This document shows, piece by piece, positions 1-57,372 of a DNA stretch of 64,000 bases. Below the pieces are notes generated by a model. The model had not been told where the DNA came from. It was given only the letters and a program-made list of their open reading frames with translations, and searched no databases. The position numbers and the translations under genes were made by a program. Positions within the stretch are counted from its first letter, which is position 1; every line of letters begins with the position of its first letter. This DNA is from Janthinobacterium sp. PC23-8 (GTDB taxonomy: Bacteria > Pseudomonadota > Gammaproteobacteria > Burkholderiales > Burkholderiaceae_D). The DNA lies in the NCBI RefSeq assembly GCF_002250505.1, contig NZ_NJGY01000002.1, forward strand, positions 776,407 through 840,406, written 5' to 3'.

Positions 1-429
1 CAGCCGCGACAGCACGGCGCACGCTTGCACCATGTCGACGATCTGGCCGCTTTCCGTCACTTCCAGTTCCAGCAAGGTGGCCGGCAAATCATGCTGGCGC
101 AGGCAAGCCTGCACCGTGTAAAACAGTTGCGGATCGCTCAGTTGCCGTACTGACAGGTTGACCGCGACCGGCACCAGCGGCAGGCCTGCCGCGCGCCACT
201 GCGCCAGTTGCCGGCAGGCGGTGGCAATACCCCAATTGCCCAGCTCGACGATGGTGCCGCTCTGCTCGCACAGGGCGATGAACTGCTGCGGGAACCCCAG
301 GCCACGGCCGGGCTGGCGCCACCGCAACAGCGCTTCCAGGCCCACCAGGCGCAAGTGCGAGGTATCGAACTTGCCCTGATAGTGAAAGCAGAATTCATCG
401 TTGTGCAGGGCGCAGGCCAGGCCAGCCAC
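1..429 (-). CDS. EAL-domain cyclic-di-GMP phosphodiesterase (3' end outside window)
   Basis: The minus-strand frame reads as the first part of an EAL domain: FCFHYQGKFDT, then VGLEALLRWRQPG, then VAVNLSVRQL and LELEVTES. These are the substrate- and metal-binding motifs of c-di-GMP phosphodiesterases (EAL itself is in GLEALLRW). The start is a GTG at 427-429 that overlaps the TAG stop of the upstream chemotaxis receptor by one base (TAGTG), which suggests translational coupling. No GGDEF or sensor domain precedes the EAL domain, so it looks like a stand-alone EAL protein fed by the receptor transcript. The gene continues past base 1, so later motifs are not visible. Family assignment is firm; coupling is inference. 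Confidence 0.8.
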   Translation of the reverse strand, partial: MAGLACALHNDEFCFHYQGKFDTSHLRLVGLEALLRWRQPGRGLGFPQQFIALCEQSGTIVELGNWGIATACRQLAQWRAAGLPLVPVAVNLSVRQLSDPQLFYTVQACLRQHDLPATLLELEVTESGQIVDMVQACAVLSRL

Positions 430-2018
430 TAGGCGGGCAGCCGCAGCACCGCGCGCGCCGGCGTCAAGCTGGCGTGCTCCTGCTGCAGCCGAAAGACACT
501 GACGACCTGCTGCAGCCGCGCCGCTTCGCTTTGCAGCGACTGCGAAGCGGCCGCCGCTTCTTCCACCAGCGCCGCATTTTGCTGCGTCACTTCATCCATC
601 TGCACCACCGCTTCGCTGACCTGGCCGATGCCCGTACTCTGCTCGGCGCTGGCGGTGGTGATGTCGCTCACCATGCGGCTGACCTTTTCCACCGCCTGCA
701 CCACGTCGGCCATGGTGGCGCCAGCCTGCGTGACGAGCGCCGAACCGTTGGACACCTGCAAGCTGGAGGCGGCGATCAGGGCGCGGATGTCGCGCGCGGC
801 CGAGGCGCTGCGCTGGGCAAGGTTACGCACCTCGGTGGCCACCACCGCAAAACCGCGCCCCTGCTCGCCGGCGCGCGCCGCTTCCACCGCCGCATTCAAG
901 GCCAGGATATTGGTCTGGAAGGCGATGCCGTCGATTACGCCGATGATCTCGGCGATCTGCGCCGAGGAGCTGCTGATCGCCTGCATGGTGTTGACCACCT
1001 GCCCGACCGCCTCGCCGCCACGGTTGGCGACCTGCGCCGCTGCCAAAGCCAGGGCGCTCGCTTCACGCGCATTGTCGACATTCTGCCGCACCGTGGAACT
1101 GAGTTCCTCCATCGCCGACGCCGTCTGTTCGAGCGAGCTGGCCTGCTCCTCGGTACGTGCCGACAGGTCGATATTGCCGGCCGCGATCTCGGTCGACGCG
1201 GTGGCGATGGTATCGGTGCCAGTGCGCACCTGCCGCACGATATCTTGCAGGTTGCCATTCATGGTCGACAGCGCGTCGAGCAGCTTGCCCGTTTCATCGG
1301 TGCCGTGGTGGCCAAAGGTGGAGCTGAGGTCGCCGGCAGCTACCGTCTGCGCCACGCCCAGCGCACGCTGCAGGGGACGCACGATGCTGCGCGTGACGAG
1401 CCAGGCCGTGACGACGGCAAACAAGATGGCCGCCGCGCTCAGGGCCAGCACCATCGCCCGCGCCGTCAGGTATTCGTCGTGCACGCGCTGTCCCGATTCC
1501 ACCATGCGCTCGTGCTGGTGCGTGATCAGGGCTTCGAGCGCGGCCATGTAGCGCAGCTGGTCGGCGCGCACGGTTTGCAGCAGCAAGGCGCTCGCTTCGT
1601 CACGCGCTCCGTCATGGAGCAGCGCCAGCACCTTGTCACGCCCCACATTGTAGACGCTGCGCGCATCCTTCACGCCCTCGATCAATTGCTTGCCCTTGCC
1701 GGAGTCGACCAATTTGTCCAGTTCGCCCAGCTTCTGCTCGGTCACCGCGCTGGCCTTGGCAATGACGTCGCGCTCCTGCGCCACTTGTTCCAATTCGTAC
1801 ATCAGGAACAAATTGCGCGAGGAGCGCGCAATCACGTTGACCTGCTTGATGATGTCATTGGCCAGCACGGTTTTCGGATATTCGCGTTCGACCACGCCAC
1901 GCATGCGCTCGTCCAGCAAGGACAAGCGCACCAGGCCCAGCGCGGCGACAGCCAGCAACAACACGGTCAGCACCGCGAACGACCAGCGCAAGCGCGTTCC
2001 TATATTCATATTCGCCAT
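429..2018 (-). CDS. Methyl-accepting chemotaxis protein
   Basis: A 529-residue transmembrane chemoreceptor: TM1 at about residues 12-32, a roughly 155-residue helical periplasmic sensor (four-helix-bundle type), TM2 near 190-210 ([18 protein letters not shown]), a HAMP linker, then the cytoplasmic coiled coil. The hairpin tip [20 protein letters not shown], the CheA/CheW-binding signature, is intact. The start chosen is the ATG at 2016-2018 directly before the TM1 segment; an upstream in-frame extension to 2159 is low-quality sequence. No C-terminal CheR-tethering pentapeptide is visible. Its stop overlaps the GTG of the downstream EAL gene. The ligand cannot be told from sequence. Confidence 0.92.
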
Positions 2019-2319
2019 ATTTTTGCATTCTTCAAGGTGAGGCAGATCGCCGTGGCCGCCACCACCGGCCATGGCGCATGTGTCATGGCAGAGCGAAACA
2101 GACAGCAGGATCGGCCGGCAGTGGACTAAAGCAGGAGCGAAGATGGCGTGCGCCGTCATCCGCGCCAGGGCGCATGATGCTACCGCAGCCAGTGTGAGTT
2201 ATCCGACAGGCAATGTCGCGTTAAGTTTTGCAAAATTTTGCTTAGATAACAAAACGTATATTTTCGTAACGATGTTTTTTCGGCAAAACCAACCATCATC
2301 AGGCCTACCCGCCGCCATG

Positions 2320-2344
2320 CAAAACGGCCGCACGAGGCGGCCGT
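2320..2344 (-). terminator. Rho-independent terminator, minus strand
   Basis: A perfect 8-bp stem (ACGGCCGC / GCGGCCGT, 5-nt loop) is followed on the minus strand by TTTT. It lies 13 bases after a short minus-strand open frame (2357-2461, 34 codons, TTG start, no Shine-Dalgarno) ending in SEDCQSVAII, which may be a tiny gene or a gene relic. Nothing else in 2019-2545 looks coding; the rest is AT-richer and probably carries the receptor promoter. Confidence 0.6.
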
Positions 2345-2545
2345 CCCGGCAGATAGTCAAATGATGGCGACCGATTGACAGTCTTCCGATTCCTGGTGCG
2401 ACGCCCTGGCCTTGCGCGCCAGCTGATTGGCCTGTGCCGAGAAAATGGTTTTGACAAGCAAGGAATCGAGAGCGAACGGAGATCATCCTTGGCTGCGCCG
2501 TTGAACCTCGTATAAGATGGTCGCAAAGCACACACCGAAAGCACC

Positions 2546-3490
2546 ATGGCCTATCTTATCGAACAAAAACTGGTGATTGGCGTCGCCTCGAGCGCGCTGT
2601 TCGACCTGTCCGACTCGCACCAGGTCTACCTCGACAGCGGCCCCGAGGAATACCGCAAGCACCAGGAAGCGCACCTCGACACGGTGCTGGGGCGCGGCGT
2701 GGCCTTTCCCTTTATCCGCCGCTTTTTAAATATCAACAAGCACCATCCGCACGAAGCGCCGGTGGAAGTGGTGCTGTTCTCGCGCAATTCGCCGGAAACG
2801 GGCTTGCGCGTGATGCGCTCGATCGCCCACTATGGGCTCGATATTTCGCGCGCCGCCTTCATGACCGGCAAGACACCCTACCCTTATCTGCCCGCCTTCA
2901 ACGCCTCGCTGTTCCTGAGCGCCAATGAAGACGACGTGCGCAGCGCCCTGGCCTGCAACTACCCGGCCGGGCTGGTGCTGCCTTCGCGCACCGAGGACGA
3001 CGAGGCCGACGACGAACTGCGCGTGGCCTTCGACTTCGATGGCGTGATCGCCGACGACGAGGCGGAAACCGTTTTCAAGCGCCATAACGACGTCGATGAA
3101 TTCCACGCCCACGAAACGCTGAACGTGGGCAAGCCGCACCGCCCCGGCCCGCTGGCCGATTTGTTCCAGAAACTGGCGGCCATGCAGCGCCTGGAAGAGC
3201 AGGCGCAGCAGCGCGACCCGGCCTACAAAAAGATCCTGCGCATCGCCATCATCACGGCGCGCAACGCGCCTTCGCACGAACGGGTGGTGACGACCCTGAA
3301 AAGCTGGGGCGTGGCGGCCGATGAAACGTTTTTCCTCGGCGGCATGGACAAGTCGCGCGTGCTGGCCGTATTCAGGCCGCATATCTTTTTCGACGACCAA
3401 CTGAGCCACTTGAAATCCAGCGGCGGCACCATCCCGATGGTGCACGTTCCCTTCGGCGTGGCCAATGTACGGGCGGGCGATGGTCTATAA
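2546..3490 (+). CDS. Cytosolic 5'-nucleotidase (PF06189-type)
   Basis: A 314-residue soluble protein of the bacterial 5'-nucleotidase family related to cytosolic cN-I. It is expected to dephosphorylate nucleoside monophosphates. The HAD-like acidic signature DFDGVIADDE lies near residue 161, with later conserved blocks IAIITARNAP and FFDDQ near 230 and 282, matching the nucleophile, motif II/III and terminal acidic motif of that fold. Full length, starting MAYLIEQKLVIGVASSALFD, typical of the family. It stands 60 bp upstream of mfd on the same strand and could share its transcript. Confidence 0.88.
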   Translation: MAYLIEQKLVIGVASSALFDLSDSHQVYLDSGPEEYRKHQEAHLDTVLGRGVAFPFIRRFLNINKHHPHEAPVEVVLFSRNSPETGLRVMRSIAHYGLDISRAAFMTGKTPYPYLPAFNASLFLSANEDDVRSALACNYPAGLVLPSRTEDDEADDELRVAFDFDGVIADDEAETVFKRHNDVDEFHAHETLNVGKPHRPGPLADLFQKLAAMQRLEEQAQQRDPAYKKILRIAIITARNAPSHERVVTTLKSWGVAADETFFLGGMDKSRVLAVFRPHIFFDDQLSHLKSSGGTIPMVHVPFGVANVRAGDGL

Positions 3491-3550
3491 TCGTACCTGG
3501 CTGCCCAGCCATCCCCGTCAACTGCCTCTGCCACCTGCGCCATCGCCTGC

Positions 3551-6500
3551 ATGTCCTTAGCCCTGAAAAAATCGCTCCCCAAGCCCGGCAACCGCTACGC
3601 GCTGCCCGCCCTGTATGGTTCATCCGACGCCTATGCGCTGGCGCTGGCCGCCTTGGCACTGAAGTCGCGCGGCCAGATGCTGGCCGTGGTGGTGGCGCAG
3701 GCCAGCGACGGCCAGCGCCTGCTCGATGAAATACCGTGGTTTGGCGGCCAGGAACTGCGCTGCCATCTGCTGCCGGACTGGGAGACCCTGCCCTACGACG
3801 CTTTTTCGCCGCACCAGGACCTGGTGTCAGAGCGCCTGGCCACCCTGCACGAAATCCAGAACCGCCAGTGCGACGTCCTGATTGTGCCGGCCACCACCGC
3901 GCTGGTGCGCCTGGCGCCGCCGTCGTTTCTGGCGGCCTACACCTTCTTTTTCAAGAAGGGCGAAACGCTGGACGAAGCGCGCCTGAAGTCGCAGCTGACC
4001 CTGGCCGGCTACAGCCATGTATCGCAAGTGATGTCGCCCGGCGAATACTCGGTGCGCGGCGGCCTGCTCGACCTGTTCCCCATGGGTTCAGCCCTGCCCT
4101 ACCGGCTCGACCTGTTCGGCGACACCATCGAGACCATCCGTACCTTTGACGCCGACACCCAGCGCTCGCTGTACCCGGTGCACGAAGTGCGGCTGCTGCC
4201 GGGCCGTGAATTTCCCATGGACGAAGCGGCGCGCACCACCTTCCGCAGCCGCTGGCGCGAGCAGTTCGAAGGCGATCCGTCGCGCTCGGTGGTCTACAAG
4301 GACATCAGCAGCGGCATCGCCTCGGCCGGCATCGAATACTATCTGCCGCTGTTTTTTGAACAAACCGCCACCCTGTTCGACTACCTGCCGCCCGACGCCT
4401 CGCTGGCCCTGGTGGGCGAAATCGACGCGGCAATCGGCCGCTTCTGGACCGACACGCAGTCGCGCTACCGCTTCCTGAAAGCCGACCGCGAACGCCCGAT
4501 CCTGCCGCCCGAATCGCTGTTTTTGGGCGACGAGCAGTTCTTTGCGCTGGCCAAGCCCTACGGGCGCCTGGCGATTGCCAAGTCGAACGATGCGCTGGCC
4601 TCCGAACTGTCGGCGCCGCTGCCCAATATTGCGGTGAACCGCCGCGCCGATGATCCGCTGGCCAATCTGCGCAGCTTCCTGCTGCAACCGGGGCGCAGGG
4701 TGATGGTCTGCGCCGAGTCGAACGGCCGGCGCGAAACCTTGCAGCAGTACTTTTCCGAATACGATTTGCAGCTGACGCCGGTGGAAGGCAGCGACGGCTT
4801 TTTGCAATCAAGCGCCAAGCTGATGCTGGGCGTGGCGCCGCTGCATGCCGGTTTCGAGCTGTACACGGACGCCGGCAACCTGGCGTTCATCACCGAGACC
4901 GAGCTGTATGCAGGTTCGGGCCGGCGCGTCGGCAAGAAAAAACAGGAAGGCGTCACCCAGGTCGAATCGATGGTGCGCGACCTGTCGGAGCTGAAAATCG
5001 GCGATCCGGTAGTGCATATCAACCATGGCATCGGGCGCTACATGGGCTTGACCAGCATGGACCTGGGCGAAGGCGAAACGGAGTTTCTGCACCTCGAATA
5101 CGCAAAAGACACCAAGCTGTATGTGCCGGTGTCGCAGCTGCACGTGATCTCGCGCTATTCGGGCGCCTCGCCGGAAGACGCGCCGCTGCATTCGCTCGGT
5201 TCGGGCCAGTGGGAAAAAGCGAAAAAGCGCGCGGCAGACCAGGTGCGCGACACGGCCGCCGAGCTGCTCAACCTGTATGCGCGCCGCGCGCTGCGCCAGG
5301 GCCATGCCTTCGAATACTCGTCGCACGATTACGAGCGCTTTGCCGACAGCTTCGGCTTCGACGAGACGCCCGACCAGGCCGAGGCGATCCACAATGTGAT
5401 CCGCGACATGACATCGGGCAAACCGATGGACCGCCTGGTGTGCGGCGATGTGGGTTTTGGCAAGACGGAAGTGGCGCTGCGCGCGGCGTTTATCGCCGTC
5501 ATGGGCGGCAAGCAGGTGGCCATCCTGGCGCCGACCACCCTGCTGGCCGAGCAGCACGCGCAGACCTTTGCCGACCGCTTCGCCGACTGGCCGGTGCGCA
5601 TCGCCGAACTGTCGCGCTTTCGCAGCGGCAAGGAGATCACGCAGGCCTTCAAGGGCATGGCCGACGGCACGCTCGATATCATTATCGGCACGCATAAACT
5701 GCTGTCCGATGACGTGAAGTTCACGCGCCTGGGGCTGGTCATTATCGACGAGGAACACAGATTCGGCGTGCGCCAGAAAGAAGCGTTGAAAGCGCTGCGC
5801 GCCGAAGTCGACGTGCTGACCCTGACGGCCACGCCGATCCCGCGCACCCTGGGCATGGCGCTGGAGGGTTTGCGCGACTTTTCGATCATCGCCACGGCGC
5901 CGCAAAAGCGCCTGGCCATCAAGACGTTCGTGCGCAGCGAAGGCGAAGCGATCATCCGCGAAGCGTGCCTGCGCGAGCTCAAACGCGGTGGCCAGATCTA
6001 CTTCCTGCACAACGAGGTGGAAACCATCCAGAACCGCCTGGCCATGCTGACCGAACTGCTGCCCGAGGCGCGCATCGCCGTGGCGCACGGCCAGATGCAC
6101 GAGCGCGACCTGGAAAAAGTGATGCGCGACTTCGTCGCCCAGCGCTACAATATTTTGCTGTGCACCACCATCATCGAGACCGGCATCGACGTGCCGACCG
6201 CGAATACCATCATCATGCACCGCGCCGACAAATTTGGTCTCGCGCAGCTGCACCAGTTGCGCGGCCGGGTCGGCCGTTCGCATCACCAGGCTTACGCCTA
6301 TCTGCTGGTGAATGACGTGCAGGGTCTCACGAAACTGGCGCAGCGCCGGCTGGACGCCATTCAGCAGATGGAAGAACTGGGCAGCGGCTTTTACCTGGCC
6401 ATGCACGACCTGGAAATTCGCGGCGCCGGCGAAGTGCTGGGCGAGAGCCAGTCCGGCGAGATGACGGAAATCGGCTTCCAGCTGTATTCGGACATGCTCA

Positions 6501-52668: not shown

Positions 52669-54042
52669 CTATGCCGCCATCAGAGTGGGAGTAGCCGACA
52701 GGATCCGCTCCTGCTCCGCTTCCCAGTCAAGATCCGGGGAAAGGATGCCGCGCCGCTTGAGTTCGTTGAAGTAGCTTTCAGCTGACAACAGGCCGGTCGA
52801 CGCGCCTTTGAACAGAAGCTCAGCGCTGGCCTCGGCCAATGTTGCGGCGCCGAAGTCTTTGTAGACGGTGATGTGGCCACCCTCTTTTTCACCGACCCAT
52901 TCAGCCATGAACTGCAACGCCTGATCAGCCGAGTCCTCGATGTTTTGCGCAACCTTCTGCAGTGCACAGGCGCCTTGTTCGTTATCGGCAATGGTCTGGG
53001 CAACGCTGGTGCCGCCGGGCTTGATGACGAGCAGCTCGGCGCCAGACTGGCGCATCTGATCCTCCAGGTCCAGCAGCACTTGCCGACCAGCAGCAACCGC
53101 AGCACCAGACATTTCGACGTACTTCATGTCAGCCTCGGGATGATCGGCCTTGACCGCGCTTCCCGCGCCAACTGCGATCTCTGCTGCCTCAAGCATTTTG
53201 GCAAACAGGATCGGCACGCTCAGTATGTGTAAGTTGGTCTGCCGGTCGCTTTTCGTCTGCCAGTGCTCGACGTTGGCATACGCCAATTCCAGCAAAGCTG
53301 GCTTGGCACTCATAAAACCCAGGCGGTTGCCGTAGACCGGCACGAATGGAATGCGGCTGATGGTGGTCACGCCACCATCGAACACGGCCCAGTCATCGCT
53401 CTTGGCACTGTCAAGCTTGCGCCATACCTGCCAACCGCCACGGTGCAGCACGCGCACTTGCTCAATGCTCTTGGTGGCGAACTCGCCGTCCTGCACCTTG
53501 ACGACTTCCAAGAGGCGCAACTGCGACAGGCCCGCCGAATCATCAAGCCAACCCAAAATGTTTTTTGGGTGGATTTGCACAAAATACGGGCGCACAGCAG
53601 CGGCCAGCTCTTCTGCCTTGGTAACGTACAGCGGCTTGCCGTCCTTATTGCGCGTGGGAGGGTGATCGACCAGGATGCCGCTGAAACCGAAGCCCAGCGC
53701 CTCTTGACCGACCTCCGCCAGGAAAGAATGCAGGTTGCGACCTGTGCGATCAACATCCTCGCACCAGGCTTTGAGCTTCGCCGGCACGTCATCGCCGTAG
53801 GTGACTGGCTTGCTGAATGGTTTCGCACCAAGCACCTCGATCGTGCGACCGTATGCGGGAAACAAGGTGGCGACGGCCAAGCGAATCGTATGGGCTTCGC
53901 GATCCTCGGCTGGCCATCGCGGCATGTGGGTCTCGCCGGCAGCGCGCATGGCCTTCGTGCCGCCGAGCAGCGCTTCGATCAGGTCGCAGTGCTCATTCAG
54001 CACAGCGGCCTCTGGCGATTGCTTGCGTACGGGATGGGTCAT
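52669..54042 (-). CDS. Portal protein (DUF4055)
   Basis: A 457-residue protein: MTHPVRKQSPEAAVLNEHCD, IEVLGAKPFSKPVTYGDDVP, GFGFSGILVDHPP, RPYFVQIHPKNILGWLDDSA, PFVPVYGNRLGFMSAKPALL and a C-terminal coiled region. DUF4055 members act as portals in siphoviruses: the dodecameric channel for DNA. It lies between terminase and MuF as expected, abutting the MuF gene. Confidence 0.85.
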   Translation of the reverse strand: MTHPVRKQSPEAAVLNEHCDLIEALLGGTKAMRAAGETHMPRWPAEDREAHTIRLAVATLFPAYGRTIEVLGAKPFSKPVTYGDDVPAKLKAWCEDVDRTGRNLHSFLAEVGQEALGFGFSGILVDHPPTRNKDGKPLYVTKAEELAAAVRPYFVQIHPKNILGWLDDSAGLSQLRLLEVVKVQDGEFATKSIEQVRVLHRGGWQVWRKLDSAKSDDWAVFDGGVTTISRIPFVPVYGNRLGFMSAKPALLELAYANVEHWQTKSDRQTNLHILSVPILFAKMLEAAEIAVGAGSAVKADHPEADMKYVEMSGAAVAAGRQVLLDLEDQMRQSGAELLVIKPGGTSVAQTIADNEQGACALQKVAQNIEDSADQALQFMAEWVGEKEGGHITVYKDFGAATLAEASAELLFKGASTGLLSAESYFNELKRRGILSPDLDWEAEQERILSATPTLMAA

Positions 54043-54056
54043 GTAAATCCTTGTTG

Positions 54057-56255
54057 TTACATGCGCAGCGGCGATACCGTGGCGCCCTTCTTTGTGATCG
54101 GGTAGCGCTTCACGAGGAAGTAGCCGTTCGCGTCGCAGTTCGAGACAATTGGCGATTGCGCATCTAGCTTGAAGCAGCCGAGATCAGGCACTGTCAGGCA
54201 ATACACCTCGCGAACGTCTTGCAGGGAAACATCCGTCACAAGACTTCCGCGTGCTGTAACGATTTGCCTCGAACGATGCACCGCACTTCCCGCAGATGCG
54301 AGTAACGTTGTCAAATCCGCTCTGCCGTCTGGCATGGGCTTTACATGCCTTGGAGCAGAATTTGACATCGCTGTTCTTGACGGTGCTGCTTGCGGCGAAC
54401 TGCTTTCCACAGCATGAGCAAGCGGCTGGAGCTGTTGCTCGAAGAGCTGCAACAGTTTTTTGATATTGCTCTTGGTGCCACTGCTTACCGGCGTCCGATG
54501 CGTGCCATGCTTTCGTCCGCGATTGATAGGTTCTACCCATTTCGGCAATTTCATCAGCCCGCTCATAACCATGTTCGCGGTTATGCTCGTCACCGGGCAA
54601 GCACAGCAAGTTTTCAGGCTGGTTGTTGCTGCGGTCGCCATCGACATGGTGTACGTGATGATCTCCCTGAATTGCTCCGTGCCACGCAATCCAGACTGCA
54701 CGGTGGAGCCGCTTTTCTCCGTCGGACACTGAGTCTTGGAAGTATTTCCCGCAAAGGTAATAACGCCTGCCCTCAAATTCTTGACAGGTTGCACTAACGA
54801 CATGCACTCGTGGCCCATCAGGTCTTTCGCTTGAATCCATTCGCCGCTCCTCACAAGAAAAAGATGATCTTGCGAGCATTCTATAACGTAACCATTCGCA
54901 ATCGTGATCTTAACTGTGCGTTTGGCACCAGTCTTGCCTGCGCCACGGTAAGGCACCCACTCGCCATCAGGGCCAAGAACCTCGCCGGCGACGGGCAATT
55001 CATCGAACCGATATCGACCTGCGCGCGTCTGCACCATTGTGCTGGCGGTGAAGCAGGCGTGGTCATGGCCAGACTTCTTGTCCGGCTGGCCGTCGGCGCC
55101 CCACACCTGCTGCTCCAGCGCCTCGGTCGTAGTCGGGCACAGGTCGGTATTGATCTTCCAGCGGCGCTCACCCTGGGCGTTCAGGATCATGCCGTTGTAG
55201 GCGTTGACCCGGTCCTTGACCGCAGGGTTTGAGTGGTTCACTTCGAGCAGGAAGCCCGCCTGGCGCAAAATGGACAGATCGGACTCGCTGGCGTTCTTGC
55301 TGCTGGTGTTCTGGCCGGAAGCATCCGGGAAAATCTTCACTTGGTGGCCCTTGTCCTTGAAGTCCTCCGTCAGGATCCTGGCCATGGCCGGCGTATCGCG
55401 CACTTTCACACGCTCGGCCAGTGTCATCGGCTGGCCCTCGCGAACCACGTTGATGCACGCCGTCATGTTCAGCACGTTGAAGTCGAGGCCCACCTGCAGC
55501 GGCTCACCAGGCAGAATGATCTGCGTCGTGCGGTTTTTGAAGCGGTCAAAGTCCGGATAAACCGAGCCGCTGGTCAAGTTCGTGAACTTGCCGCGCAAGT
55601 AGGCATCGATCAGCGCTGGCGGGTAGCTGGCCAGCAGCGACGGAATGTAGTCGGCGGGCAGATTGAGCTCGTTGTCGAACGTGCTCGCCTGAATCAGGCC
55701 ATACAGCGTCGCCAGCTCGGGCTTGTCGCGCACCGCCTTCACGAACTGCTGGTAGACGAACTTAAAGCCTTCCGGCGTGGTCGTCACGTCGATGCCGTTG
55801 AGCAGGCCCGGCACGTTGTAGCGCATCCGCGCGATGATCTTGCGCCAGGCCGTTTGTGCCTTGAGCATCGGCATCACGTCCAGCTCATCGATCAGCGCGT
55901 GGCCGATCTTGAAGCCGACGATGGTTTCAGGCTTCTCCATAGAGCGGCAGATGACCGTGCCGCGATATAGCCGCCCCTCGTACACCTCGACCTCGTGATC
56001 TCCCTGCTTCACCTTGATGCGCAAGCCCATCGCATAGGCCACCTCCTCCATCGTGGGATAGAAGATGTCGCGGATCTGCGGATAGGTCGGCGCGAAGTAA
56101 CCTTGGCTGATGCCTGGCCACTGCCAGAAATGCATGCAGATACCGACGCAGCCCACGAAGGTTTTGCCGGAGCCGAAACCCGCGACATAGGCCTTGTACT
56201 TATGGGGCAGGTTCAGGAAGGCAGCCTGCGGGATATTCAGGTCAAGCTGGATCAT
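54057..56255 (-). CDS. Terminase large subunit interrupted by an intein
   Basis: A 732-residue precursor. The N-terminal ATPase has Walker A GFGSGKT at about 26-32 and Walker B HALIDELDVM near 128. The RNase H-like nuclease has VGLDFNVLN near 256 and KIFPDASGQN near 300. After GHDHA at residue 400 the sequence enters an intein (401-706) and resumes at CDANGYFLVKRYPI. The intein thus sits inside the third nuclease motif (DHA/CDA), which is rebuilt only by splicing. Mature terminase would be 426 residues, normal for the family. ATG at 56253-56255 is chosen; it overlaps the small subunit by 14 bp. Confidence 0.9.
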   Translation of the reverse strand: MIQLDLNIPQAAFLNLPHKYKAYVAGFGSGKTFVGCVGICMHFWQWPGISQGYFAPTYPQIRDIFYPTMEEVAYAMGLRIKVKQGDHEVEVYEGRLYRGTVICRSMEKPETIVGFKIGHALIDELDVMPMLKAQTAWRKIIARMRYNVPGLLNGIDVTTTPEGFKFVYQQFVKAVRDKPELATLYGLIQASTFDNELNLPADYIPSLLASYPPALIDAYLRGKFTNLTSGSVYPDFDRFKNRTTQIILPGEPLQVGLDFNVLNMTACINVVREGQPMTLAERVKVRDTPAMARILTEDFKDKGHQVKIFPDASGQNTSSKNASESDLSILRQAGFLLEVNHSNPAVKDRVNAYNGMILNAQGERRWKINTDLCPTTTEALEQQVWGADGQPDKKSGHDHACFTASTMVQTRAGRYRFDELPVAGEVLGPDGEWVPYRGAGKTGAKRTVKITIANGYVIECSQDHLFLVRSGEWIQAKDLMGHECMSLVQPVKNLRAGVITFAGNTSKTQCPTEKSGSTVQSGLRGTEQFREIITYTMSMATAATTSLKTCCACPVTSITANMVMSGLMKLPKWVEPINRGRKHGTHRTPVSSGTKSNIKKLLQLFEQQLQPLAHAVESSSPQAAPSRTAMSNSAPRHVKPMPDGRADLTTLLASAGSAVHRSRQIVTARGSLVTDVSLQDVREVYCLTVPDLGCFKLDAQSPIVSNCDANGYFLVKRYPITKKGATVSPLRM
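54138..55055 (-). other. Intein in the terminase large subunit
   Basis: 306 codons. The N-terminal splice block starts CFTASTMVQTRAGRYRFDEL; block B is GYVIECSQDHLFLV (conserved His present). The C-terminal blocks are VREVYCLTVPDLGCFKLD (block F) and SPIVSN before Cys (block G). N1 Cys, terminal Asn and +1 Cys are in place; the penultimate residue is Ser instead of the usual His, a tolerated variant in some inteins. The region between the blocks is read in frame without stops but has no recognisable endonuclease; that is encoded in another frame. Confidence 0.85.
54184..54840 (-). CDS. HNH homing-type endonuclease, nested out of frame in the intein
   Basis: A 218-residue protein in a different frame from the terminase/intein. 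HNH_3 motif at about residues 45-90: LHRAVWIAWHGAIQGDHHVH, then HVDGDRSNNQPENLLCLPG with DEHN. Two zinc ribbons follow (CSCCGKQF...KFCSKACK; RICGKCGASF...KSCDGCF). A strong Shine-Dalgarno GAGGAG (54847-54852) lies six bases before the ATG at 54838-54840, so it can be translated independently. The base composition is less GC-rich than the terminase. It spans intein residues 72-291. Probably promotes homing of the intein. Confidence 0.85.
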   Translation of the reverse strand: MDSSERPDGPRVHVVSATCQEFEGRRYYLCGKYFQDSVSDGEKRLHRAVWIAWHGAIQGDHHVHHVDGDRSNNQPENLLCLPGDEHNREHGYERADEIAEMGRTYQSRTKAWHASDAGKQWHQEQYQKTVAALRATAPAACSCCGKQFAASSTVKNSDVKFCSKACKAHARRQSGFDNVTRICGKCGASFEANRYSTRKSCDGCFPARRSRGVLPDSA

Positions 56256-56703
56256 CGTTCTTTCGCGCCCCATCCTTGACGCCGATGATGATTTGCACGG
56301 GCGTCGGCAGCTGATCGCTCGGCTCGGCCTTGCCCTTGTTCACGTAGATATCGCCCACTTCCTTGGCGGCCTGCTCGTAGAGACTGGCCACCAGCGGCAA
56401 GTTGCGCATGTTCTCGGCCTTCTGTGCCAGTCGGGCCAGGCCGCGCAGGCGAAATGCCTTGCTGGCGATCGGGATTTCCTCGGCAGTGGCGCGGAACTTG
56501 GCCCGTGTCTCTTCGAAGATCGTTCGCCATTTCTGGCTCAGGTTGCGGCCGACGTACGTGTTCGGGTCGTACAGCGACACCTGCTGGCGCGGCACATCGA
56601 GGCCGAATTCTTCCTTTACTGCAACAGATACTTGCGTCGGCGAGTCGAAACAGGCCAGCGCTGTGACGACGTACAGCTTCACCTCGTCCTTGAGTGCGGC
56701 CAT
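56242..56703 (-). CDS. Terminase small subunit (DUF2280)
   Basis: A 153-residue protein: MAALKDEVKLYVVTALACFD, SPTQVSVAVKEEFGLDVPRQ (HTH), then SLYDPNTYVGRNLSQKWRTI and a coiled-coil. This is the DUF2280 family of small terminases that recognise the packaging site. It is followed by the large subunit with overlap. Confidence 0.88.
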   Translation of the reverse strand: MAALKDEVKLYVVTALACFDSPTQVSVAVKEEFGLDVPRQQVSLYDPNTYVGRNLSQKWRTIFEETRAKFRATAEEIPIASKAFRLRGLARLAQKAENMRNLPLVASLYEQAAKEVGDIYVNKGKAEPSDQLPTPVQIIIGVKDGARKNDDPA

Positions 56704-56733
56704 GTTTTAGTTTCCTGTAAAGCAACGTAAAGC

Positions 56734-57372
56734 CTACGCAGCCTTCAGCAAACAGGTTCCGCAAGCCCTCGCGATGTTGATTCTCGCCACTTCGGGCGGT
56801 GTCTTTGCTGCATCGATCATGCGCTGCACGTCCTCGCTGGCGCCGTAGCGGCGGACCACGCCGATGAACTCTTCGACATCGTGCGACCGCATGCACAGCT
56901 TCGGCAATCCGTACTTGTTGAATGCTGGCGCGCCGAATTCATCCATCTCTTGGGCGATGTGATAAAGCTCGTGTTCGACCAGGGCGCAGAATTCGGCGTC
57001 GCTGCAGGCCAAGCAATACGATGCGTCCAGGGTGATGAGGAAGTCCGGCACCATGCCGAACCAGTCGGCCATCTGCTGTTGCTGGCGGCCCTTTTGCCAC
57101 GGCCCGCAGCGGAAGGTGACCTCTTCGCACTGACCCAGCACAGTGCGGCCCGCCTTCACGAACCCTTCCGGCGCCCACAGGAACTGCACGTCGGCATATT
57201 CCAGGTGGGCGTGGTCTTTGTTGTAGAGCGCGCCGCCTTCGGTGAGGATGGTTGCGCGCGCCCACTTGAGCACCTCGGGCGCGGGCAGATAGCGGTTGTT
57301 CAGTGGGTCGGTGAATTCGGGTGGCGGTACCGGGCGGCCTATGCCTGGCGCAGTTGGTTGTCTGCGCGTCAT
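56734..57372 (-). CDS. Putative phage metallopeptidase
   Basis: A 212-residue protein with zinc-binding HExxH in CALVEHELYHIAQEMDEF (about residue 130-137) and CMRSHDVEEFIGVVRRYG. PF18894-like 'putative phage metallopeptidase', which is usually found upstream of terminase genes. The substrate is unknown. Stop is 30 bp before the small terminase start. Confidence 0.82.
   Translation of the reverse strand: MTRRQPTAPGIGRPVPPPEFTDPLNNRYLPAPEVLKWARATILTEGGALYNKDHAHLEYADVQFLWAPEGFVKAGRTVLGQCEEVTFRCGPWQKGRQQQQMADWFGMVPDFLITLDASYCLACSDAEFCALVEHELYHIAQEMDEFGAPAFNKYGLPKLCMRSHDVEEFIGVVRRYGASEDVQRMIDAAKTPPEVARINIARACGTCLLKAA

Follow-up and report, generated by a model that had tools for sequence, protein, structure and literature searches.

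An HNH homing-type endonuclease gene lies out of frame within a contiguous intein of phage terminase large subunits

Introduction

In canonical endonuclease-containing inteins, for example those of the LAGLIDADG type, the endonuclease is encoded in frame and is part of the protein that is spliced out. Dassa et al. reportedly described, in 2009, fractured genes in which a homing endonuclease gene is located between the two halves of a split intein. Out-of-frame HNH insertions, as in ShiLan, and HNHs between split-intein halves are thus both already known. According to the accessible sections of PMC11855218, the ShiLan domain is a hidden out-of-frame HNH in a mycobacteriophage DNA methylase; in these sections its authors state that there is no intein or intron, that the insert is thought to be retained in the protein, and that a Shine-Dalgarno (SD) sequence is undetectable. 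Another methylase with an out-of-frame HNH is mentioned in the abstract of PMC12613952, and part of PMC6892783 describes a split PolB intein in Pseudomonas phage MIJ3 with an HNH between its halves. For terminase large subunits (TerL), excerpts of PMC5050341 indicate that mycobacteriophage TerL inteins splice and that some of them cut, and TerL inteins and free-standing homing genes near the terminase are covered in excerpts of PMC5050341 and PMC10448857. The portions available of PMC3229294, PMC6293099 and PMC12768974 contained nothing closer. In the literature searched, which had most subscription papers outside its reach, we found no description of an intact intein with an endonuclease encoded within it in another frame.

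Here we analysed a stretch of 64,000 nucleotides from Janthinobacterium sp. PC23-8 (contig NZ_NJGY01000002.1, positions 776,407 to 840,406), referred to as the window. The original prediction for this DNA was that an HNH endonuclease is nested out of frame inside a terminase intein.

Results

A contiguous intein in the terminase gene

The terL frame had been predicted to stay open across a 306-codon intein with clear splice blocks, and no internal stop codon was found in this frame between 54057 and 56273 (Table 1). The intein comprises C407-N712 of the 738-residue ORF, with the junctions HDHA/CFTAS...PIVSN/CDANGY, and the terminase consists of residues 1-406 and 713-738. The spliced TerL would therefore have 432 residues from the listed start; the length of 426 residues given in the original prediction is obtained only if Met7 is the start. 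A Pfam search with the window TerL revealed Terminase_6N (E = 3.7e-27) and Terminase_6C (E = 4e-10). For the window alone, the Intein_splicing match (5.4e-5) was under the Pfam gathering score; the same family was found in 37/38 and 33/37 related outer ORFs. Cys1, His64 of block B and Asn306 are invariant in all of the 66 aligned inteins, and the residue after the intein (+1) is Cys in 34 and Ser in 4 of 38. The uninterrupted TerL of Klebsiella phage KY271399 spans the extein join (64% over 427 aligned positions, both exteins included), this empty-site evidence being the one site examined among 932 TerL records. The insert thus has the splice residues, the Hint fold and a reading frame shared with the host gene, and an intein-less allele exists.

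Table 1. Features of the terL locus in the window
Feature	Position	Strand	Basis or remark
terL, terminase large subunit precursor with intein, 738 aa	54057..56273	-	one open frame, without internal stop; Terminase_6N, Terminase_6C
N-extein, 406 aa	55056..56273	-	alignment to uninterrupted TerL of Klebsiella phage KY271399
Intein, 306 aa, C1 ... N306, followed by Cys+1	54138..55055	-	C1, H64, N306 invariant in 66/66
N-terminal Hint segment, intein residues 1-90	54786..55055	-	AlphaFold block pLDDT
Linker, intein residues 91-267, out-of-frame reading of the HNH gene	54255..54785	-	pLDDT, identity to L003
C-terminal Hint segment, intein residues 268-306, blocks F and G	54138..54254	-	block pLDDT; Foldseek intein/Hint matches
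C-extein, 26 aa (CDANGY...)	54060..54137	-	alignment to KY271399 TerL
HNH_3 homing-type endonuclease, C-terminal Cys (zinc-ribbon-like) motifs, 218 aa + stop	54184..54840	-	-1 frame of terL
GAGGAG, Shine-Dalgarno-like, 6 bases before the HNH ATG at 54840	54847..54852	-	sequence
153-aa ORF just upstream of terL, in the place of the terminase small subunit	56242..56703	-	small subunit annotated there in homologous phages

The alignments used for AlphaFold contained 66 of 71 inteins and 63 of 71 HNHs. In the intein model, the block pLDDT was 95-98 for residues 1-80, 85 for residues 81-90, 43-68 for residues 91-270 and 96-98 for residues 271-306, and the low-confidence middle is the part that overlaps the HNH gene. 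The pTM was only 0.51 because of this middle part. A Foldseek search using the intein model returned 27 matches with E up to 0.001, all of them inteins or related Hint domains, with gp41-1 at the top; the gp41-1 intein also ranked first by sequence profile (4e-20). The two ends of the intein are therefore predicted with confidence to form a mini-intein, around a middle modelled with low confidence. On this architecture, splicing is a prediction well supported by analogy. Reading the insert as a group I or II intron was rejected, as no Rfam match was found up to E 1 in 53500-56800 and no Rfam intron reached the gathering threshold in 10 related loci.

An HNH gene in the second frame

The first ATG of the HNH ORF is at 54879, and the start preceded by GAGGAG, at the spacing given in the original prediction, is at 54840, with coding sequence at 54187-54840 and the stop codon at 54184-54186. 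From the latter start the gene covers intein residues 72-291, as had been claimed. The outer terL codons begin at HNH codon position 2, which places the HNH in the -1 frame of terL. HNH_3 was matched by the window HNH with E = 6e-12 (Pfam) and was present in 63/63 relatives, among which H64, H65, N77 and H86 of the window HNH are invariant, together with four Cys residues. The AlphaFold model of the HNH had a mean pLDDT of 90.5. Its best solved relative was I-HmuI, the only clear one by sequence profile (E = 3.4e-5), with a weak structure match (E = 0.18). A single HNH copy was found in the genome of the window, and 2/399 genomes of the order, this one included, contained a match.

In 41/70 nested loci, the HNH frame has a start codon preceded by 4 or more SD-matching bases; the corresponding numbers for the two other frames over this stretch are 17/70 and 11/70. 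The remaining 29/70 nested HNHs have no SD match of this length, and 6/7 of the +1-frame HNHs are among them. In the nested loci, the HNH frame usually opens near intein residues 50-95, and in complete nested inteins its stop lies 5-30 residues before the last Asn of the intein. In 12/58 of the -1-frame loci, this stop is formed from the block F Tyr codon and the next Asp/Asn codon, or from the same with His.

Recurrence of the nested arrangement

An HNH-profile scan of IMG/VR, from which the best 80 matches were kept, gave 59 HNHs nested in a contiguous intein, 52 of them in the -1 frame and 7 in the +1 frame. The other loci were 10 split, 9 neither, 1 with an open second frame without an intein (L063) and 1 incomplete (L095). 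The intein start of one nested locus (L089) is lost at the contig end, and only the C half is visible in one split locus (L031).

A second query contained the last Hint segment and the first C-extein residues and no HNH sequence. Among its best 80 of 546 relatives, 78 were contiguous inteins with HNH sequence in the -1 frame, and none (0/80) had an in-frame HNH; an in-frame HNH was likewise absent among the IMG/VR loci classified from the best 80 matches of the HNH query. This sample of 80 contains 65 distinct outer proteins in 47 clusters, and the HNH model was covered to at least 75% in 76/80 loci. One locus (L187) is a 128-aa mini-intein without HNH. Two others (L179 and L182), both counted within the 78, retain just 37 residues of the HNH in an intein of 147 aa, and one (L161) begins inside the intein. 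The second sample draws on kin of the nested loci because the query was built from these, and some contigs are common to both IMG/VR samples.

Nested loci were also found in 4/12 named phages examined, out of 18 matching phage records, namely Tetrasphaera TJE1, Acinetobacter Highwayman, Rhodobacteraceae LS06-2018-MD07 and gut phage MT838676. Among genome contigs, the 8 of 23 loci with long matches (L099-L106) comprised 5 complete nested loci, 1 nested locus cut at the contig start, 1 split and 1 neither. Free-standing HNH relatives adjoin terL in phages SN1, PAE1, Shemara, EauM-23, BP10, Poludnitsa and FBPa53. By eye, no second-frame HNH was seen at the Hint domain in the head protein of Escherichia phage Ec1-ASingh. 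The nested arrangement is thus no one-off: of the forms sampled at this TerL site, it is the most frequent.

A sequencing frameshift in the window, which would undermine the original prediction, is very unlikely because 78 of the best 80 second-query loci have the same layout and an 83%-identical HNH on a different contig keeps both frames open. A sequencing error or chance ORF was accordingly rejected by the recurrence in relatives. The homologues also retain both the splice motifs and the HNH, in the proportions given above.

Openness and selection in the two frames

The openness of the terL frame over the HNH was examined in 44 representatives of the 47 clusters of the second sample, chosen blind to HNH or openness; clusters represented by L187, L179/L182 or L161, or without an HNH match, were outside the test. 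No stop was present in the terL frame, compared with 110.8 expected from synonymous shuffling of the HNH codons, and the third frame of the same 44 representatives had 1019 stops vs 945 expected. The control was a set of 33 non-nested HNH relatives, which showed no stop deficit (205 vs 193 and 514 vs 533, observed vs expected); in this comparison, which excluded L063, L095, L100 and L105, "nested" is defined by zero stops, and the 0/71 of the nested set is by construction. The non-nested HNHs average 6.2 stops in the -1 overlap phase and 15.6 in the other. The terL frame is also open in each of the seven +1-frame loci, where extein codon usage predicts about 9-19 stops per locus and shuffling predicts 6-13. 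For the window by itself, the count of 0 stops across the HNH core (1.7-2.3 expected, P 0.03-0.06) is mildly unusual and near chance. Chance openness is therefore rejected for the set and poorly rejectable from the window alone.

The HNH dN/dS was 0.07-0.30 in 6 of the 8 nested pairs with computable dS, showing the purifying selection that the original prediction requires of this frame, and the dN/dS of the linker frame was 0.66-2.3. Between the window and L003, identity is 83% for the HNH, 56% for the linker, 77% for Hint N, 88% for Hint C and 81% for the N-extein, with a dS of 1.3, near saturation. When HNH constraint and stop avoidance were simulated for this pair, without transition bias, the expected linker identity was 0.50 +- 0.02 vs 0.56 observed; the observed linker conservation was exceeded by 0/60 simulations in 4/5 pairs and by 3% in the fifth. 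This slight excess may reflect transition bias or some real constraint on the linker. No sign of strong amino-acid-level selection on the linker was seen in the nested-pair comparison or the simulation. The HNH frame is under purifying selection, and the linker frame is mostly just kept open. The proposal that one DNA segment provides a linker in one frame and a conserved HNH in another thus held, with both frames kept in relatives.

Split relatives

When profiles of the Hint halves were applied to the non-nested loci, 14 of these had the HNH flanked by two ORFs, each with one half; the two halves share a phase in 9 and do not in 5. Cultured phages are included in these 14. In Lactobacillus phage CL2, the annotated terminase ends in the intein N half, and the C half and the terminase end are in an unannotated ORF. 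Vibrio phages 1.238.A and 1.245.O are also among the split relatives (C half weak, E = 0.004), and the split Brochothrix phage BL3 has only a short HNH remnant overlapping the halves. The window is not of this type, its host frame being contiguous. Judged from these ORF layouts, the nested arrangement grades into the split ("fractured") form.

Mobility and phylogeny

Among 134 nested loci, 2297 pairs have an HNH identity of at least 50%, and in 1383 of these the TerL N-extein identity is below 35%; these pairs are non-independent, and unequal rates may contribute. None of the 2297 pairs has an extein identity that exceeds the HNH identity by more than 0.2. Mobility is invisible in the pair of the window and L003 because their exteins (0.815) are as alike as their HNHs (0.835).

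An HNH tree was built by a quick method without L002, L095 and L124 and was used for label counts only, 48/103 of its inner branches having support below 80. In this weak tree, free-standing HNHs are interleaved with nested ones (14 changes for "free"), and one change separates the -1 and +1 groups. The order of the free, nested and split states is left unsettled by this tree.

Discussion

The locus is probably a composite mobile element, in which a mini-intein captured a free-standing homing gene out of frame. The chassis would be a mini-intein whose two Hint segments together have about 130 aa, placed ahead of a conserved D-A-x-R-Y-like stretch in the C-terminal part of TerL. An HNH_3 gene, of a family also found free-standing beside terL, would have been captured out of frame at the place where inteins normally hold their endonuclease domain, and would have retained its own start and stop codons. 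Ribosomes translating terL would read the HNH DNA in the wrong frame, as a low-complexity linker, and the Hint segments would fold together and splice to give mature TerL. Other ribosomes would initiate at the HNH ATG and produce the nuclease, which would cut intein-less terL alleles, and repair of the break would copy intein and HNH together. The homing step is suggested by the family of the HNH, its place, its patchiness and its mobility; translation from its own start, target cutting and a direction from nested to split are likewise presumed steps.

Because the HNH brings its own stop, an in-frame insertion would truncate terL, and only the other two frames would survive. This argument, which is our own, agrees with the lack of in-frame members among the best 80 of 546 relatives. 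The -1 frame would be the most used since fewer stops need removal there, judging from the non-nested HNHs. Once a stop arises in the outer frame, trans-splicing from two genes would be the sole way out; with openness lost, terL would be fractured into a split intein, matching the look of the split relatives. More tentatively, and on balance doubtfully, the TerL-site inteins might be a widespread class whose overlapping homing gene is kept open by two-frame selection and was captured at least twice, in two frames, with outer-frame stops fracturing the gene into natural split inteins.

Three other explanations were weighed. The HNH could be a packaging partner of the terminase and not a homing enzyme, the overlap being operon compaction: the family lies beside or inside terL, and the HNH of HK97 acts with the terminase in cos cleavage, as stated in part of PMC10448857. 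However, many such TerL genes have no HNH (Klebsiella phage), HNH-free and decayed inteins exist, HNH and intein are common to very different TerLs, and the HNH occupies the usual endonuclease place of inteins, so we consider this role quite unlikely. Very unlikely, in our judgement, is an HNH that began as an in-frame intein domain and was moved by two compensating frameshifts, which would make the overlap a form of decay. Its location where inteins have in-frame endonuclease domains and the one change between the -1 and +1 groups in the weak tree would suit such an ancestor, but no classified locus is in frame, the HNH frame is strongly conserved with its own start and stop, and free-standing and nested relatives are interleaved in that tree. 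Least probable is that the HNH is made as a TerL-Hint-HNH fusion through programmed -1 ribosomal frameshifting: although the -1 frame, which holds nearly all nested HNHs, is also the direction in which bacterial ribosomes commonly shift, this bias has another cause in the stop numbers per phase, an in-phase simple slippery heptamer was found in the searched stretch of only 9/63 -1-frame loci, the one heptamer of the window (GGGAAAT) is downstream of the HNH ATG, this ATG is often just 2-5 codons from the point where the HNH frame opens in the nested loci, seven loci use the +1 frame, and SD-preceded starts are enriched in the HNH frame. The heptamer, start and frame counts thus disfavour a frameshift fusion.

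The nested arrangement gives inteins a third way to hold an endonuclease, as an overlapping gene that is neither in frame nor between split halves, and it offers a reason, namely that a homing gene with its own stop codon cannot be in frame in an essential gene. One HNH family connects free-standing genes by terL with contiguous and with split inteins, which opens the origin of split inteins to testing; if the more tentative proposal of a widespread class is true, natural split inteins would have arisen stepwise, by a route that could be examined in present-day relatives of either state. For annotation, terminases with the insert conceal an unannotated nuclease gene, as in terL of Tetrasphaera phage TJE1, and split relatives conceal the last piece of the terminase, as in Lactobacillus phage CL2.

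Compared with known systems, the locus resembles canonical inteins in having an endonuclease between the Hint halves and a presumed homing cycle with mini-inteins and decay; however, the window HNH is in the -1 frame and not in frame with its intein. Split or fractured inteins likewise have a separate endonuclease ORF between block B and block F in an essential phage gene, whereas the window and most sampled loci have an unbroken intein that the endonuclease gene overlaps in another frame. The mycobacteriophage TerL inteins lie in the ATPase domain, as far as the source excerpts describe them, whereas the window intein is found in the nuclease region at the C-terminal end and has an HNH in another frame. 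I-HmuI is alike in the HNH motif region, but it is encoded by a group I intron and its structural match is weak. ShiLan shares with the window an HNH with Cys/zinc motifs in another frame of a phage gene whose own frame is open throughout, and, in the accessible sections of its description, a patchy distribution suggesting homing. Unlike ShiLan, the insert in the window is an intein with invariant splice residues, and its host is a terminase.

Genomic setting and variant forms of the intein

The 68-kb IMG/VR contig IMGVR_UViG_2854727110_000001 carries an HNH gene and a terL identical to those of the window, and the window element therefore sits in a predicted provirus. Among the related loci, the HNH occupies the +1 out-of-frame phase in seven (L034, L045, L053, L054, L070, L074 and L090). 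This phase demands far more stop removal than the -1 phase, and a Shine-Dalgarno match before the HNH start was absent in six of the seven.

In the split terL inteins of CL2 and BL3, the N half forms the end of the annotated terminase, and a small downstream ORF, unannotated in CL2 and annotated as gp3 in BL3, carries the C half and the terminase C-terminus. The HNH of BL3 is only a short remnant. The two Vibrio phages have a single long, contiguous intein-like insert near the terL P-loop. Their C-terminal site holds a second intein, of the split type, whose halves flank an unannotated HNH. Inspection by eye of the Ec1-ASingh head-protein insert revealed no second-frame HNH.

An HNH-free form, a mini-intein of 128 aa, was found in L187. 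The inteins of L179 and L182 are 147 aa long and keep, in the other frame, 37 residues from the HNH end; this piece is a remnant of HNH deletion.

Positions of intein features in related loci (numbered per locus)
Locus	Feature	Position	Strand
Lactobacillus phage CL2 (L015)	terL with split intein	455-2771	
Brochothrix phage BL3 (L124)	terL with split intein	709-2604	
Vibrio phages 1.238.A (L122) and 1.245.O (L123)	terL with two intein-type inserts	218-3946	
Escherichia phage Ec1-ASingh (L205)	head protein with Hint/intein-like insert	655-2646	reverse
L187	mini-intein at the TerL site of the window intein	3189-3570 region	
L179 and L182	HNH remnant in intein	about 3386-3496
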